Shown here: piece by piece, positions 12,795-18,755 of the stretch
Numbering within the stretch: position 1 is the stretch's first letter
Layout: each line of letters starts with the position of its first letter
Assembly (NCBI GenBank): GCA_007135095.1
Contig: SLJO01000221.1
Coordinates: 1-41,602 of the forward strand
Direction: 5' to 3'
DNA: 41,602 bases
Origin: Bacteroidales bacterium
GTDB lineage: Bacteria; Bacteroidota; Bacteroidia; Bacteroidales; PUMT01
Notes under the pieces: model-generated
Seen by the model: only the letters and a program-made list of their open reading frames with translations
Databases searched by the model: none
Told to the model about the DNA's origin: nothing
Position numbers and translations under genes: made by a program

Positions 12795-13208
12795 TTACTT
12801 TTTCCCCCATTCTTTAAGCTGGCACATGCAGGAACCTGTGAGACGTGCCTTAATATTAATCTTAACCGGTAGTCCGTCTCTTTCCCATTCGGTAATTCCG
12901 CCTGCCATATTTGCTATATTTTCAAACCCCTTGCCCTTTAAAAACAATACAGCCTCTTTGCTATGGATACCGGCGGAATCAGCAAAAATAAAGAATTCAT
13001 CATCAGGGAGGTCCTTATATTCAGTTTCAATATTGCCGGCCGGCAAAAAGAGAACTTTATCCACATCGAATGATTTAAAGTCACGAAGATAACTATCCCT
13101 CACATCAACGAGGATAACACCTTTTTTACATAGTTCATATGTCTCCTCAGGCGACAAATGTAAAACCCCGTCTATCATAAAACCTTTATCTTTGAACAGG
13201 TCAATCAT
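12795..13208 (-). CDS. Rhodanese-like protein lacking the active-site Cys, with C-terminal CxC
   Basis: 137 aa from ATG at 13208 (MIDLFKDKGF); an in-frame TTG at 13238 would add 10 residues. The rhodanese fold is clear: ILVDVRDSY (33-40), VLFLPAGNI, FFIFADSAGIHSKEAV and MAGGITEWERDGLPV. In active rhodaneses the loop is C-x4-R-S; here it is DSAGIHS, with Asp77 replacing the persulfide Cys, so normal sulfurtransfer at this site is not possible. The tail reads TGSCMCQL, with Cys127 and Cys129 as a pair. It is the last gene of the ars cluster, 108 bp after acr3. Inference: the tail may bind As(III) or metal, or act as a redox pair; untested. Confidence 0.8.
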   Translation of the reverse strand: MIDLFKDKGFMIDGVLHLSPEETYELCKKGVILVDVRDSYLRDFKSFDVDKVLFLPAGNIETEYKDLPDDEFFIFADSAGIHSKEAVLFLKGKGFENIANMAGGITEWERDGLPVKINIKARLTGSCMCQLKEWGKK

Positions 13209-13316
13209 TTTAAGAGGTTCATTTTTAAAGATTGACAAATTGTTATCTATTTTTTAAAAGTACGGAAATCTGACAATACCGTTAAATTTAAATTGCCCGG
13301 TAAATCATCAATTAAT

Positions 13317-14345
13317 TCAAAACTTTTTCCTGTTGGCAAAGGCAACAAGTGAAAGCATGACTGGTACCTCAACCAAAACCCCTACCACCGTGACCAGCGC
13401 AGCGGGTGATTGCAGTCCGAACAGGGCAATAGCAACGGCAACTGCCAGTTCAAAGAAATTACTTGCACCTATCATTGCTGCGGGTGCACAAACAGCATGC
13501 GGAAGCTTCAGTTTTTTTCCGCCGTACCAGGCAATAAAGAAGATAAAGTAAGTCTGTATCACCAGGGGCACGGCAGCGAGCAATATAATCAGCGGATTGC
13601 TCAGGATATTCTGTCCCTGAAATGCAAACAATAAAACAAGAGTTATTAACAGGGCTATAATGCTTACAGGCTTTAACCTTGGAAGGAATTCCTTCTTAAA
13701 CCATTCTTCTCCCTTTGACTTCATAAGAATCTGCTGTGTGATAACCCCGGCAACAAGGGGAACAACCACGAAGATAACTACACTGGCAACCAGTGTGCCA
13801 TAGGGTATTGTTACATCTGTTATTCCGAGTAACAATCCCACTATAGGAATAAATGCAACAAGGATTATCAAATCGTTTACAGAGACCTGTACAAGGGTGT
13901 AATTCGGGTCTCCATCGGACAGGTAGGACCATACAAATACCATGGCAGTGCAGGGGGCGGCACCCAGAATAATAGCACCTGCAATATATTCACCGGCCAG
14001 GGCAGGATCAATCCAGGCGGCATAGATTTTTGTGAAAAAAAGCCATGCAAAAAATGCCATGGTAAATGGCTTGATAAGCCAGTTTATAGCTACAGTCCAG
14101 ACTATTCCACGGGGCTTCTTACGGATTTGCTTTATACTGGTAAAATCTATCTGAAGCATCATGGGGTAAATCATCAGCCAGATGAGAATAGCTACCGGTA
14201 TATTTACCCTTGCTATCTCCAGGCTGCTTATTATTTTGATGCTGTCGCCGGCCAGATGACCGATAAGGATGCCGGCAAGGATTCCGAGACCAACCCAAAC
14301 AGTTAAATATTTATCGAAAAAGCTAATTGTTTTCTTTTGTACCAT
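13317..14345 (-). CDS. acr3: Arsenite efflux permease, ACR3 family
   Basis: 342 aa with about ten membrane segments. Signature regions include PVAILIWLMIYPMMLQIDFTS, the conserved cysteine segment GAAPCTAMVFVWSYLSDGDP (the Cys essential in characterised ACR3 proteins) and APAAMIGASNFFELAVAVAI. It belongs to the BASS superfamily ACR3 branch, not the ArsB ion-transporter family. It exports arsenite (and in some members antimonite) across the inner membrane using the proton gradient. Located between the Usp gene and the rhodanese-like gene, same strand as arsR, arsC and arsM. Confidence 0.93.
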   Translation of the reverse strand: MVQKKTISFFDKYLTVWVGLGILAGILIGHLAGDSIKIISSLEIARVNIPVAILIWLMIYPMMLQIDFTSIKQIRKKPRGIVWTVAINWLIKPFTMAFFAWLFFTKIYAAWIDPALAGEYIAGAIILGAAPCTAMVFVWSYLSDGDPNYTLVQVSVNDLIILVAFIPIVGLLLGITDVTIPYGTLVASVVIFVVVPLVAGVITQQILMKSKGEEWFKKEFLPRLKPVSIIALLITLVLLFAFQGQNILSNPLIILLAAVPLVIQTYFIFFIAWYGGKKLKLPHAVCAPAAMIGASNFFELAVAVAIALFGLQSPAALVTVVGVLVEVPVMLSLVAFANRKKF

Positions 14346-14462: not shown

Positions 14463-15332
14463 TTATCTTGATAAAGGAACAAATAGAACATTGGAATCGG
14501 AATGCCTGGCTACCTGGTGACTGACGCTTCCCAGGAAAATTTCGGAAATATACCCGCGCCCCTGGCTGCCCATCACTGTCAGGCACGCTTCCTTTTCCTT
14601 TATATAGTTTAAAATCACTTGCTTGGGTTTACCGTATTCGATTGCTATCTCAATATCAGTTTCAGGGTGGGCTTCATTGAATGATTTTTTCAGGCGTTCA
14701 AGCCGTTCACCGTCAATCCTGTTGAATTCTTCAAGCTTATCCTTCAGGTACTTTCCGATCTTAACCTCATCCTGCACATGCATAAGGATTAATTTTGGAA
14801 AAGACACATTCCTGCCTTTGAGCCATTGAAAAGCTGCTTCTGCAGTATCTGAAAAATCGGTGGGAAAGAGGATGCTGCCTGTTAGTTTATTACAAGAAAT
14901 CTTGTGGGTTTTTCCGTCTTTTGTTTCAATAGTTTTCATGGCCATAAGAAGCAGCGGATGGGTGATATTTTGAATAAGCTCAGACGCGGTGCTTCCGATA
15001 AGTGCCTTTGTAAGGGAAATCCCATGGCTGCCGATTATTATCAAAGCCGCATCATTTTCCTTTGCAAGGCTCTGCAGTTCATCTTTAGGCAGGTGTTTCA
15101 TTACCTTTGTATCAACCTCAAAACCCTCTTCCTGGAGTTTCTTTTTCTGCATTTCAAGTTTCTCCTCCACCCCCTGCTTCAGCATTTCTTCAAAAGCCTG
15201 GATGTATTTTAAACCCAGTGCATGCACGAGTGTTATTCTATTTATTCCCAGCTTTTTATATTCTGATGCACATTCAATCAGCTTGTCCGATGCCGGCGAC
15301 AGATCGGTTCCGAATATTGCATGTGTGTTCAT
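14463..15332 (-). CDS. Tandem universal stress protein (two UspA domains)
   Basis: 289 aa. Domain 1 (about 1-140) has HAIFGTDLSPASDK and ends with GSHGISLTKALIGSTASELI; domain 2 (about 150-289) has SILFPTDFSDTAEAAFQWL and GSQGRGYISEIFLGSVSHQVARHSD. The second repeats the ATP-binding pattern G-x2-G-x9-G-(S/T) more closely than the first. UspA proteins help cells survive stress, and ATP-binding forms act as switches; the exact role is unknown. It sits between arsM and acr3, with 117 bp to acr3 and 40 bp to arsM, so it is probably part of the arsenic operon. Confidence 0.9.
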   Translation of the reverse strand: MNTHAIFGTDLSPASDKLIECASEYKKLGINRITLVHALGLKYIQAFEEMLKQGVEEKLEMQKKKLQEEGFEVDTKVMKHLPKDELQSLAKENDAALIIIGSHGISLTKALIGSTASELIQNITHPLLLMAMKTIETKDGKTHKISCNKLTGSILFPTDFSDTAEAAFQWLKGRNVSFPKLILMHVQDEVKIGKYLKDKLEEFNRIDGERLERLKKSFNEAHPETDIEIAIEYGKPKQVILNYIKEKEACLTVMGSQGRGYISEIFLGSVSHQVARHSDSNVLFVPLSR

Positions 15333-15372: not shown

Positions 15373-16185
15373 TCAACCCGGTTTTTCAGCATAAACCGTG
15401 ATACTGTGAATACCTGCCTCTGATTTCTTGAATTCAGCAAGTTCTTTTTTATCAATATATTGAAGGAAAACCTCATCGGGTATGGTAATAGCCTTTACCT
15501 TCTGTAATTTGATGTTTACAAGTCCGGCTCCTTCCATTAATTTTAAATATTCATCAAGCCTTACTGCTCCTGAAATACATCCGGCATACAGTTCGGCGGC
15601 CTGCTGGAGTTTCTCAGGCAATTGCCCTTTTAAAACCACATCTGACACGGACAGATGGGCTCCCGGTTTCAATACCCTGAGAATTTCACTAAAAGTTTTT
15701 TCCTTGTCAGGTACAAGATTTAATACGCAGTTGCTGACTATCACGTCGGCGGTATTATCTGCCAGTGGCATATTTTCGATGTCACCCAGCAGAAATTCTA
15801 CATTTTCATAACCAAGTCCGGCTGCATTTTCACGTGCTTTTTTGATCATTGATTCAGTCATGTCAAGACCAATAACACGGCCCCTATGCCCGACCAGGGC
15901 ATGCGCTACAAAACAATCATTTCCTGCACCGGAGCCAAGATCCAGAACTGTATCGCCCTCTTTGATCCTGGCAAATTCTGTGGGAATACCGCAGCCTAAC
16001 CCCATATCCGCATCGGGATTATATCCTTCAAGCGTATCATAGTTTTCGCTGAAAATGGAATAATCAACCCCTGAACAGCAACCTGATGCAGTACAACAGC
16101 CTCCGGTCTCCAATTGGACTTTTGATTGCAGGGCAATCTGGCCGTATTTTTCCTTTACTAATTTTTTTAAATCTTCCGGATCCAT
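15373..16185 (-). CDS. arsM: Arsenite methyltransferase (ArsM)
   Basis: 270 aa. A class I SAM domain reads VLDLGSGAGND (80-90), then VIGLDMTESMI, FLLGDIENMPL and VSNCVLNLVPDKEK. The Cys set expected for ArsM is present: Cys30/31 near the N-terminus, Cys65 in GLGCG, Cys153 in SNCVLNL and Cys203 in YAGCISGA, the last three corresponding to the As(III)-binding trio of characterised enzymes. Extra cysteines (36, 37) lie close to the N-terminal pair. It methylates As(III) with SAM to methylated, partly volatile arsenicals. Its place after arsR and arsC supports the call. Confidence 0.93.
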   Translation of the reverse strand: MDPEDLKKLVKEKYGQIALQSKVQLETGGCCTASGCCSGVDYSIFSENYDTLEGYNPDADMGLGCGIPTEFARIKEGDTVLDLGSGAGNDCFVAHALVGHRGRVIGLDMTESMIKKARENAAGLGYENVEFLLGDIENMPLADNTADVIVSNCVLNLVPDKEKTFSEILRVLKPGAHLSVSDVVLKGQLPEKLQQAAELYAGCISGAVRLDEYLKLMEGAGLVNIKLQKVKAITIPDEVFLQYIDKKELAEFKKSEAGIHSITVYAEKPG

Positions 16186-16274: not shown

Positions 16275-16700
16275 CTATAATCGAGGTTCAATTTCTTCTT
16301 TATACAGTTTGTAAAAGCCTTCATTTATCTCATCCCTGACACGGATAAATTCACTGTGAATAAATTCTTCAGTTCCGGTAACATGGGAGGGGTCGTCAAA
16401 TCCCATATGGAGACGTTTCTTTACATTACCCGTAAACACAGGGCAATTTTCGTTAGCACCTCCACAAACGGTAATCACATAGTCCCATTCCTCTCCCATA
16501 TATTTTTCAACAGAATCGGATGTATGATGACTTATATCTATGCCAGCATCTTTCATCACTTCAACTGCTTTTTCATTAAGCCGGCCTGAAGCTTCCGTTC
16601 CGGCAGAGAATACATGCAGTCTGTTATCGAATGATTCCATAAATCCGTGTGCCATCTGGCTGCGGCATGAATTCCCGGTGCAAAGGATAAGTATTTTCAT
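16275..16700 (-). CDS. arsC: Arsenate reductase, thioredoxin-coupled LMW-PTP type
   Basis: 141 aa from ATG at 16700 (MKILILCTG); an upstream ATG at 16736 would add 12 residues with no homology. The P-loop CTGNSCR (Cys7 to Arg13, CX5R) has the nucleophile, and the redox pair is Cys79/Cys86 in TVCGGANENCP. FDDP (101-104) supplies the catalytic Asp. This spacing matches the S. aureus pI258-type enzyme, which reduces As(V) to As(III) with thioredoxin. The usual Asp after the first redox Cys is Gly here. It follows arsR by 54 bp and precedes arsM. Confidence 0.93.
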   Translation of the reverse strand: MKILILCTGNSCRSQMAHGFMESFDNRLHVFSAGTEASGRLNEKAVEVMKDAGIDISHHTSDSVEKYMGEEWDYVITVCGGANENCPVFTGNVKKRLHMGFDDPSHVTGTEEFIHSEFIRVRDEINEGFYKLYKEEIEPRL

Positions 16701-16754
16701 GTGTTTGTATTTATTAAAAACCCTGGCATGATTCATTCCGATATATAGAATTGA

Positions 16755-17105
16755 TCAGCAGCAATCATTTTCGGTTTTAATCATTCCCGGGTCAGTCTTT
16801 ATTTCCTTTACAAACGAGTTGAGCGTTTTCTCAAGCCAGTCGACCTTCGCCGGATTAAGACAGTAGTTGGTTTTAACCCCGTCAACGGTTCCTGAGATAA
16901 GACCAACTTTTTTGAGTTCGTTCAGATGCTGGTTCACTGTTGTCCTGCTAAGGGGCAACTCATCGGATATATCACCGCTGATGCACGTCTTTATTTGTGC
17001 AAGATATCTTAGTACAGCCAGCCGCGCCGGGTGTCCAAGTGCCTTGAACAATGCGGCATTTGTCTGAAGATCTTTTTCGAACAATGAAACTTTGGTTGCA
17101 GCCAT
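16755..17105 (-). CDS. arsR: ArsR-family metalloregulator
   Basis: 116 aa from ATG at 17105 (MAATKVSLFE). A longer frame with a TTG at 17141 is unlikely, since the candidate -7 box covers that codon. The winged-helix core is ALFKALGHPARLAVLRYLAQ, followed by the recognition helix in PLSRTTVNQHLNELKKVGL and the wing GVKTNYCL. Cysteines at 41, 82 and the terminal 115/116 are candidate As(III) ligands; Cys41 lies near the DNA-binding helix, as in classic ArsR proteins. It leads the operon and should repress it until As(III) binds, using the dyad at 17164-17179. Confidence 0.9.
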   Translation of the reverse strand: MAATKVSLFEKDLQTNAALFKALGHPARLAVLRYLAQIKTCISGDISDELPLSRTTVNQHLNELKKVGLISGTVDGVKTNYCLNPAKVDWLEKTLNSFVKEIKTDPGMIKTENDCC

Positions 17106-17138
17106 ATTATCATCATCATTAATCCGTTTGTCGTGACG

Positions 17139-17179
17139 CAAATATACGTTATTTTTTTAAAACGACGTAATAATACGTC
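17139..17179 (-). promoter_or_regulatory. ars promoter and candidate ArsR operator
   Basis: On the minus strand TATATTTG (17139-17146) matches the TAnnTTTG -7 box, 34 bp upstream of the arsR ATG. Directly upstream at 17164-17179 is the dyad GACGTA-ATAA-TACGTC (perfect 6-bp arms, 4-nt spacer), in the position where a bound repressor would block RNA polymerase. A related half-site CGTTAT/ACGTA string lies between the two. No good -33 TTTG was found. Location next to arsR supports operator function; it is an inference. Confidence 0.55.
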
Positions 17180-17229: not shown

Positions 17230-17776
17230 TCAATATGCTTTTCTGAGCATGTCGGCATATCTGTCAGGCAAAATACTATCTTCAATGGCTTTGGCGGCTT
17301 TTTCGATGTCATAGCCGGCATATTTGAACCCGGGATTCGGACGTCCCTCTCCATTCCCTGTAATATAGGTTCCGCAGGACTTGCGGCATCTTCCGCATAA
17401 AATACATGCTGAGTTATTGTCTACCGTAGCAGGGTACAGATCAACACCGCAGTTTTTATAATTCTGATTGTACTGGTAATTCTTATGAATACAGGATTTG
17501 TCCCTGCAACTGTCACATACCTCCTTGCTGCCGATGCGCCATCCAATTGGCGAAAATCTTGAATAGAGCCCGAGGTTATATCCAACCGGACAAACGTACC
17601 TGCAGAAAGTGTTCTTTTCATAAATCAGGCCGATGATTATCGACACCACAACAATCCCGAGCATGTATATTGCCATGTAAAACGGATCCCGGTGTATGGC
17701 CAGAAATTGTGCCGGAATTGCCCTGCAAAAAATTTGTTCTTTCCCGGGCTGCTTGAGTGGAATAATTTTCTTCCAG
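17230..17776 (-). pseudogene. 5'-truncated NapH/NosR-like 4Fe-4S membrane protein
   Basis: The in-frame ATG at 17676 gives 148 aa, but the same frame is open and homologous-looking back to a TAA just above 17776 (KQPGKEQIFCRAIPAQF... DPFY). One membrane segment (about 5-19) is followed by the hallmark FCRYVCPVG (Cys25, Cys29) and two further Cys clusters, VCDSCRDKSC and CILCGRCRKSC, i.e. two 4Fe-4S ferredoxin-like sites. NapH/NosR-type proteins have four or more membrane segments ahead of this, so most of the N-terminus is missing. It is probably a broken gene next to the ars cluster; a short functional ferredoxin cannot be ruled out. Confidence 0.7.
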
Positions 17777-17882
17777 GATGGTTAAAACTTTAGCTGTATT
17801 ATAGTTAGTGGTATAATTTTTGTCAATAATAGTTAAGAAAACGGTGCAAATTATTTTTTCTAACCCTAATTCCCTGGGAATA

Positions 17883-18755
17883 ATGAGAGCAAAGGTAAGA
17901 ATGATTTTTGTTATCCTTATCGCGGCAGCCGTCTCAGGAACCTATATGGCTTCAGCAGATGATTCCCCTCCTGATTCCCCATATTTTGGCAAATGCCTTA
18001 ATACCGCTACTTCTCTAACTTCAGCCGAAACGAAGGCAGGCCCGGCGGCAGTCCACCGTCGGCACGATTCTCCGGAAGACACCATCTGGTTTGATGATTT
18101 TCTTGTCGTGGGCAGCGACACCCTTTCATGGGAGCAGGCTTACGGATGGGAGTTTGCATGGCAGGAGTATAATGTTACGCCGGAAGACACCATCTGGTTT
18201 GATGATTTTCTTGTCGTGGGCAGCGACACCCTTTCATGGGAGCAGGCTTACGGATGGGTGTTTGCATGGCAGGAGTATAATGTTACGCCGGAAGACACTA
18301 TCTGGTTTGATGATTTTCTTGTCGTGGGCAGCGACACACTTTATTACACCCGGGATTATGCATGGAGCAGTACTGATCGCAAATTAATAATTAACATTCC
18401 CGAACCCACAGCGGACTGGTATAGCCCGGAATTATCGCTCAGGTTTTATAATTCGGGAATGCATTACGATCCCTTTTATGTCGGATTTCTTTGGCAAAAC
18501 AGGAATGGCACTATTTATAGCTTCGGTAATCATTTTTTTATACCAGATATAACACCCATTGCCGACTGGATAGAAATTGCAGTTAACCACAGGAAGGAAA
18601 CAGAAAGGCCCCTTTATTCCTATTATATGCCATTGCCGCCGCAGGGGCCTTACACTTCGGAAGGCCTCGTTCAAAGGCGTCGGGCCGGATCGGAAAATGA
18701 TAAATCGTTGATTTCCATTTTACGGTCTTTGCTTTTACCGGAGAGCGACCAATAA
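17883..18755 (+). CDS. Secreted protein with 36-aa tandem repeats, unknown function
   Basis: 290 aa from ATG at 17883; a TTG further upstream (17820) would only add residues ahead of a clear signal peptide (MRAKVRMIFVILIAAAVSG, cleavage near ASA). Residues 64-99 and 100-135 are near-identical 36-aa repeats starting PEDTIWFDDFLVVGSDTL and continuing with SWEQAYGW, and a third partial copy occupies 136-153. The remaining part (about 155-290) is Trp/Tyr-rich (DWYSPELSLRFYNSG and WQNRNGTIYSFG) and ends in a basic tail. I do not recognise the family. The DNA repeats are nearly identical, so they arose recently. Confidence 0.6.
   Translation: MRAKVRMIFVILIAAAVSGTYMASADDSPPDSPYFGKCLNTATSLTSAETKAGPAAVHRRHDSPEDTIWFDDFLVVGSDTLSWEQAYGWEFAWQEYNVTPEDTIWFDDFLVVGSDTLSWEQAYGWVFAWQEYNVTPEDTIWFDDFLVVGSDTLYYTRDYAWSSTDRKLIINIPEPTADWYSPELSLRFYNSGMHYDPFYVGFLWQNRNGTIYSFGNHFFIPDITPIADWIEIAVNHRKETERPLYSYYMPLPPQGPYTSEGLVQRRRAGSENDKSLISILRSLLLPESDQ
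18072..18341 (+). repeat. 108-bp tandem repeat, 2.5 copies
   Basis: Copies start at 18072, 18180 and 18288, each opening CCGGAAGACAC. The period is exactly 108 bp (36 codons). Copies 1 and 2 differ by single bases (GAG to GTG at the Glu/Val codon), and copy 3 diverges after about 54 bp at GACAC-ACTTTATTA. The in-frame period keeps the protein open. Confidence 0.95.

Follow-up and report, generated by a model that had tools for sequence, protein, structure and literature searches.

The arsenic operon and its last gene

The window, by which the whole analysed stretch of 41,602 nucleotides is meant, is contig 10 of a 4.0 Mb Bacteroidales genome that is 94% complete. An arsenic resistance operon lies on its minus strand in the gene order arsR-arsC-arsM-usp-acr3-rhodanese. 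The arsR-family regulator (16755..17141) matched NF033788 with 58.6 bits (cut-off 55), and is followed by an arsC-like gene (16275..16736) of the LMW-PTP, thioredoxin-type arsenate reductase family, which matched PF01451 and reached 129.6 bits with TIGR02691, below the cut-off of 174.3. The arsenite methyltransferase gene arsM (15373..16185; NF008823, 347 bits, cut-off 263), a gene for a universal stress protein with two Usp stretches (14463..15332; PF00582, 137.8 bits) and the gene for the arsenite efflux permease Acr3 (13317..14345; TIGR00832, 389.7 bits, cut-off 282.8) complete the set ahead of the rhodanese-like gene (12795..13208), all on the minus strand. The sequence-only reading had placed this last gene directly downstream of acr3, and indeed acr3 ends 108 bp upstream of it on the same strand.

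Just upstream of arsR is an ORF for a NapH-like ferredoxin of 148 aa (17230-17676, minus strand), which matches only the C-terminal part of its profile (157-247 of 255) and is therefore probably a truncated gene. Further out, an ORF at 17820-18755 contains 2.5 copies of a 108-bp unit (18072-18342, 98% matches), corresponding to a 36-aa protein repeat. A perfect sigma-70-type match, TTGACA-17-TATAAT, was found at 17826-17798 on the minus strand, which is odd for a genome of the Bacteroidota type and may be due to chance; the scan for promoters and terminators was at chance level overall.

The rhodanese-like gene encodes a protein of 137 aa, starting at the ATG at 13208; an alternative TTG at 13238 would add 10 aa, but the homologues start at the ATG. 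The protein matched Pfam Rhodanese (PF00581) with 33.2 bits against a cut-off of 22.2, which places it in the rhodanese homology domain, and the Pfam search gave no other family, whilst no NCBIfam model reached its own cut-off in the profile search. AlphaFold2, run with a 48-row alignment, predicted a rhodanese fold with a mean pLDDT of 94.3, and values of 86 and 77 for the blocks of the tail. The top PDB matches found by Foldseek are rhodaneses, the first being 3gk5 (E 3.7e-8), and the sequence matches in the PDB end at about residue 120, so that no solved structure spans the tail.

The loop of the active site reads D77-S-A-G-I-H82-S83 (12960..12980, minus strand), with Asp in place of the catalytic Cys, and the tail carries the motif G125-S-C127-M-C129-Q-L131 (12816..12836, minus strand). 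Both had been picked out in the sequence-only reading, which was right about the Asp and about the presence of the CxC tail, but had the protein ending in TGSCMCQL, when its true C-terminus is TGSCMCQLKEWGKK, with six more residues after the QL.

A family of rhodaneses with Asp77 and a CxC tail

Relatives were sought with the window protein in an unbiased sample of 247 genomes of the same order, where 98 genomes gave some match and about 48 held a close relative. A scan of genome contigs added 80 further loci, nearly all titled as Bacteroidales or Bacteroidetes MAGs; some of these contigs are the same as contigs of the order sample, and counts are therefore given on distinct sequences. The scan was built on a 16-sequence alignment, the full set of 48 having yielded no conserved stretch that could be used. 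A gene borne by phages was rejected, as there was no relative among viral contigs.

The family numbers 116 distinct relatives, nearly all from MAGs of the Bacteroidales type, and more than 100 of them combine Asp77 with the CxC. Over these sequences Asp77 is conserved in 99% (with a single Glu) and Trp108 in 100%, and conservation reaches 99% for Gly125, Cys127 and Cys129 and 97% for Leu131, although CxC counts from the contig scan are biased, as GSCxC is part of one of the two patterns that it used. The spacing between Trp108 and the CxC is the same in 113 of 114 sequences, which argues for a fixed site. The two features together are hence a trait of the family and more than chance. Cys at other positions is optional: of 115 sequences, 66 have C27, 40 have C55 and 23 have no Cys in the domain at all. 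L074, the only member without the CxC, likewise shows no linkage to ars genes, which is a single case.

An active sulfurtransferase has a catalytic Cys in a C-x4-R-S/T loop, neither of which is found in D77-S-A-G-I-H-S, and the position held by Arg in active rhodaneses is variable across the family, where it is His, Arg, Lys, Asn or others. Asp or Gly in the place of the catalytic Cys is a mark of non-catalytic rhodanese domains (PMC6272796). A sulfurtransferase was accordingly rejected on these loop residues, and the loss of sulfur-transfer chemistry proposed earlier is consistent with them; the activity is likely to have been lost, judging from the missing Cys. A related alternative is that the tail carries persulfide sulfur and has a role in arsenic thiolation or sulfur trafficking, as might be suggested by the rhodanese fold and by its structural neighbours, which include YgaP and persulfide enzymes such as BpPRF. 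This is very unlikely, given that the catalytic Cys and a conserved loop Arg are both missing, and that, for the BpPRF rhodanese domain, the title of the PDB entry calls mutation of its catalytic Cys (C314) inactivating.

The Asp-type proteins share the fold, the domain boundaries and the loop length of single-domain rhodaneses (PF00581; GlpE, YgaP and TVG0868615, 3gk5), but differ from them in the Asp, in the unconserved loop Arg and in the extra CxC tail. The non-catalytic rhodanese domains of MAPK phosphatases and other proteins likewise have Asp for the catalytic Cys (PMC6272796), whereas the Asp-type proteins are stand-alone, are encoded in ars operons and have an invariant dithiol tail. 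Membership of the rhodanese superfamily and an arsenic context are both shared with the ACR2-type arsenate reductases of the rhodanese/Cdc25 fold; these require a Cys-x5-Arg loop, however (PMC6272796, PMC5525254), and an arsenate reductase of the ACR2/Cdc25 type was rejected, the loop here being of the shorter rhodanese type and without Cys.

In a tree built from 104 domain columns, all 49 Asp-type sequences fell on one side of a branch with an SH-aLRT of 97, even though column 77 and the tail had been excluded, and the Asp-type proteins are thus a single clade; this was a quick tree with few columns, and its deeper branching was not read. A second clade (SH-aLRT 97) consists of 20 relatives from the same order with tails of 3-10 Cys (for example CGCGCS...CC), in which the active-site Cys is kept in 13. 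The genes of this sister clade are mostly in the same type of ars clusters, share several loci with an Asp-type gene and are also uncurated (L063 7145-7573; L083-L090; L102 2526; L121 6496; L160 579; L161 2210; L169 7082). A third clade (SH-aLRT 92) holds 18 relatives from another class of the phylum with the canonical Cys and no tail Cys, and about 3 kb of DNA read at their loci gave no profile match to an ars structural gene. The fourth (SH-aLRT 99) comprises four relatives on plasmids of Pseudomonadota (Citrobacter, Pseudorhizobium NT-26, Cereibacter and Comamonas), all with the active-site Cys and with 2-7 tail Cys. The gene order permease-thioredoxin-rhodanese is conserved among them; three of the four have acr3 and arsC-type genes in the vicinity, and the Cereibacter plasmid has arsR-type regulators and a molybdopterin oxidoreductase gene. 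Cys-bearing rhodanese tails therefore recur in arsenic clusters.

No curated family covers the Asp-type proteins. A scan of 48 members against curated families gave only partial matches to other rhodanese families, and NF045521 (rhoda_near_glyco), one of the two that most members match (37/48), scored 27 bits with the window protein and 34 bits with an Asp-type relative (L034), against a cut-off of 145. A literature search, with subscription journals largely outside its reach, returned no paper describing the family.

Linkage to arsenic genes

Linkage was scored with profiles built from the neighbouring genes and scanned over all loci, counting acr3, arsM, arsC, arsE, arsF, arsG and a SaoE-like permease. 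The identities of arsE, arsF and arsG are given by TIGR00412, NF040494 and NF040495, all above cut-off, whilst the permease of the arsEFG module matched the SaoE and SO_0444 models below their cut-offs. Within 8 kb, 36 of 47 Asp-type genes of the order sample were ars-linked, compared with 3 of 20 other rhodaneses of the order (Fisher p = 5e-6), and within 3 kb on the same strand the figures were 36 of 47 and 0 of 20, these 20 controls having been chosen as distant matches and not at random. By this linkage the gene is a candidate accessory gene of ars operons. Carrier genomes also hold acr3 more often than others (45 of 48 against 105 of 199, p = 2e-8).

Across all 114 distinct loci, 94 (82%) are ars-linked, and this is a lower bound because several contigs stop close to the gene; by chance, linkage would be expected for about 1% of positions in a genome of 4 Mb. 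Asp77, the CxC tail and ars clusters thus co-occur strongly, as the sequence-only reading had asked to be checked, and homologues with the CxC are not equally common away from ars genes, which it had named as the outcome that would speak against it.

Both export modules are present at 42 of the loci, the arsEFG/permease module only at 30, the Acr3 module only at 22, arsR only at 8 and none at 12. The 30 loci with only the arsEFG/permease module have no acr3, arsC or arsM within 8 kb. A partner specific to Acr3 was rejected on these 30 loci. The earlier proposal, in which the protein serves that exporter as an As(III) chaperone or sensor, is too narrow; a further 20 loci have no ars gene other than arsR in the DNA read (some of these contigs being short). 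Linkage to the Acr3 module alone, to the arsEFG/permease module alone or to both suggests that what the loci have in common is a substrate and not a single partner protein.

The 20 loci without further ars genes may instead point to a general thiol-stress or structural protein, the ars linkage covering only part of the family. In the order sample the CxC is kept in 10 of 11 loci without an ars gene beyond arsR, which counts against an arsenic reading, and several of the eight loci with arsR only lie beside genes for an eight-haem cytochrome and a ProC-like protein. A linkage of 82% overall against about 1% expected by chance makes this an improbable account, however, and the ProC-like gene recurs in ars-linked loci of the family too.

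Several other genes were observed near members of the family. One recurrent neighbour of Asp-type genes, often the immediate one, encodes a membrane-anchored cytochrome of about 815 aa with eight CxxCH motifs, and it is also seen at loci with no ars gene other than arsR (L118 8413-10863; also L079, L101, L103, L105, L114, L117, L120, L126 and L057). The ProC-like gene, of the pyrroline-5-carboxylate reductase family but below cut-off, was found at L126 (10953-11723) and at 23 other loci. A Cys-rich small membrane protein of 93 aa with no Pfam match is encoded directly downstream of the Asp-type gene at L053 (8484-8765), and nine other loci, not counting the duplicate record L164, have weaker relatives.

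The arrangement of the loci bears on two further roles. A sensor of arsenicals that acts on ArsR, as an anti-repressor or co-regulator, might be expected from the 30 of 114 loci with arsR adjacent upstream and the eight further loci where arsR is the sole ars gene. There is little to commend this reading, as arsR is five genes away in the window, ArsR senses arsenicals by itself, and ars operons of every kind commonly contain arsR.

The main rival to arsenical binding is a redox-active dithiol, in which the CxC would relay electrons between the thioredoxin-like ArsE/ArsF, the DsbD/CcdA-like ArsG and the thioredoxin-dependent arsenate reductase ArsC. The CxC is a known redox motif, arsC is adjacent downstream at 30 of the 114 loci and arsG adjacent upstream at 16, and the profile search found ArsE to be thioredoxin-like and ArsG to match DsbD as well. 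However, many loci have no arsC nearby and others no arsEFG, so neither proposed partner is constant, and the Cys-rich tails of the sister group resemble metal(loid) ligands more than a redox pair; such a relay is rather unlikely, if less so than the other alternatives above.

A putative site for trivalent arsenicals

The reading that we favour, tentatively and as a possibility somewhat short of probable, is that the protein is a non-enzymatic rhodanese scaffold, whose putative CxC site binds trivalent arsenicals and buffers them or hands them on. The Asp-type protein would be an accessory component of ars operons, chiefly those of Bacteroidales, with the catalytically dead rhodanese domain serving as a structural scaffold and the C-terminal CxC, at its constant spacing from the domain, as a dithiol for trivalent arsenicals produced by ArsC, ArsM or ArsEF. 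These may be buffered and then passed to the exporter encoded in the operon, which would be Acr3, or ArsG with the SaoE-like permease. The family follows two unrelated export modules, alone or together, so that the substrate is the simplest common factor, which favours binding with hand-over or buffering.

The sequence-only reading had taken the cysteine pair for a natural As(III) ligand. The arsenite site of the ArsR of plasmid R773, ELC32VC34DLC37, includes a Cys-x-Cys (PMC2440759), and the short CxC-x-L dithiol motif is common to both proteins, although the R773 motif lies in the DNA-binding region of a regulator and has three Cys, whereas that of the Asp-type proteins is a C-terminal tail on a rhodanese. 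The ArsRs that neighbour Asp-type genes have an R773-type CxCxL site in 0 of 35 cases, from which no conclusion is drawn. Two thiols suffice for MAs(III), whilst three are usual for As(III) (PMC11868830). That no third Cys is conserved speaks against tight three-coordinate binding of As(III) by the monomer, and as only two thiols are invariant, two-ligand binding of methyl- or aromatic-As(III) would be expected, with tight binding of As(III) only where a third thiol is available. With its two invariant thiols, the CxC would be expected to be no worse a ligand for methyl- or aromatic-As(III) than for arsenite.

ArsD, the arsenite metallochaperone, is also a small ars-operon protein with a Cys pair, and is the only arsenite chaperone named in a review (PMC6205960); a similar working is only proposed for the Asp-type protein. 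An ArsD homologue was rejected, as the window protein has no match to the ArsD profile PF06953 and belongs to a different family. ArsD was found in 5 of the 247 genomes of the order, and in one genome (G058) the Asp-type gene adjoins arsD, so the Asp-type protein is not simply a substitute for it. A stronger form of the proposal, that a dead rhodanese forms the basis of a second type of arsenical metallochaperone, one that is unrelated to ArsD, serves Acr3 and ArsG and prefers methyl- or aromatic-As(III) through its two thiols, is doubtful. To our knowledge, Acr3 and ArsG are pumps that are not known to need a metallochaperone.

If the Asp-type proteins do bind arsenicals, a previously unrecognised protein would be added to arsenic handling in anaerobes, and an enzyme fold would, once its catalytic residue was lost, have been put to new use in carrying a metalloid. 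The analysis also offers a concrete annotation, with testable Cys residues, for more than 100 proteins for which curated models are no more precise than rhodanese-like.
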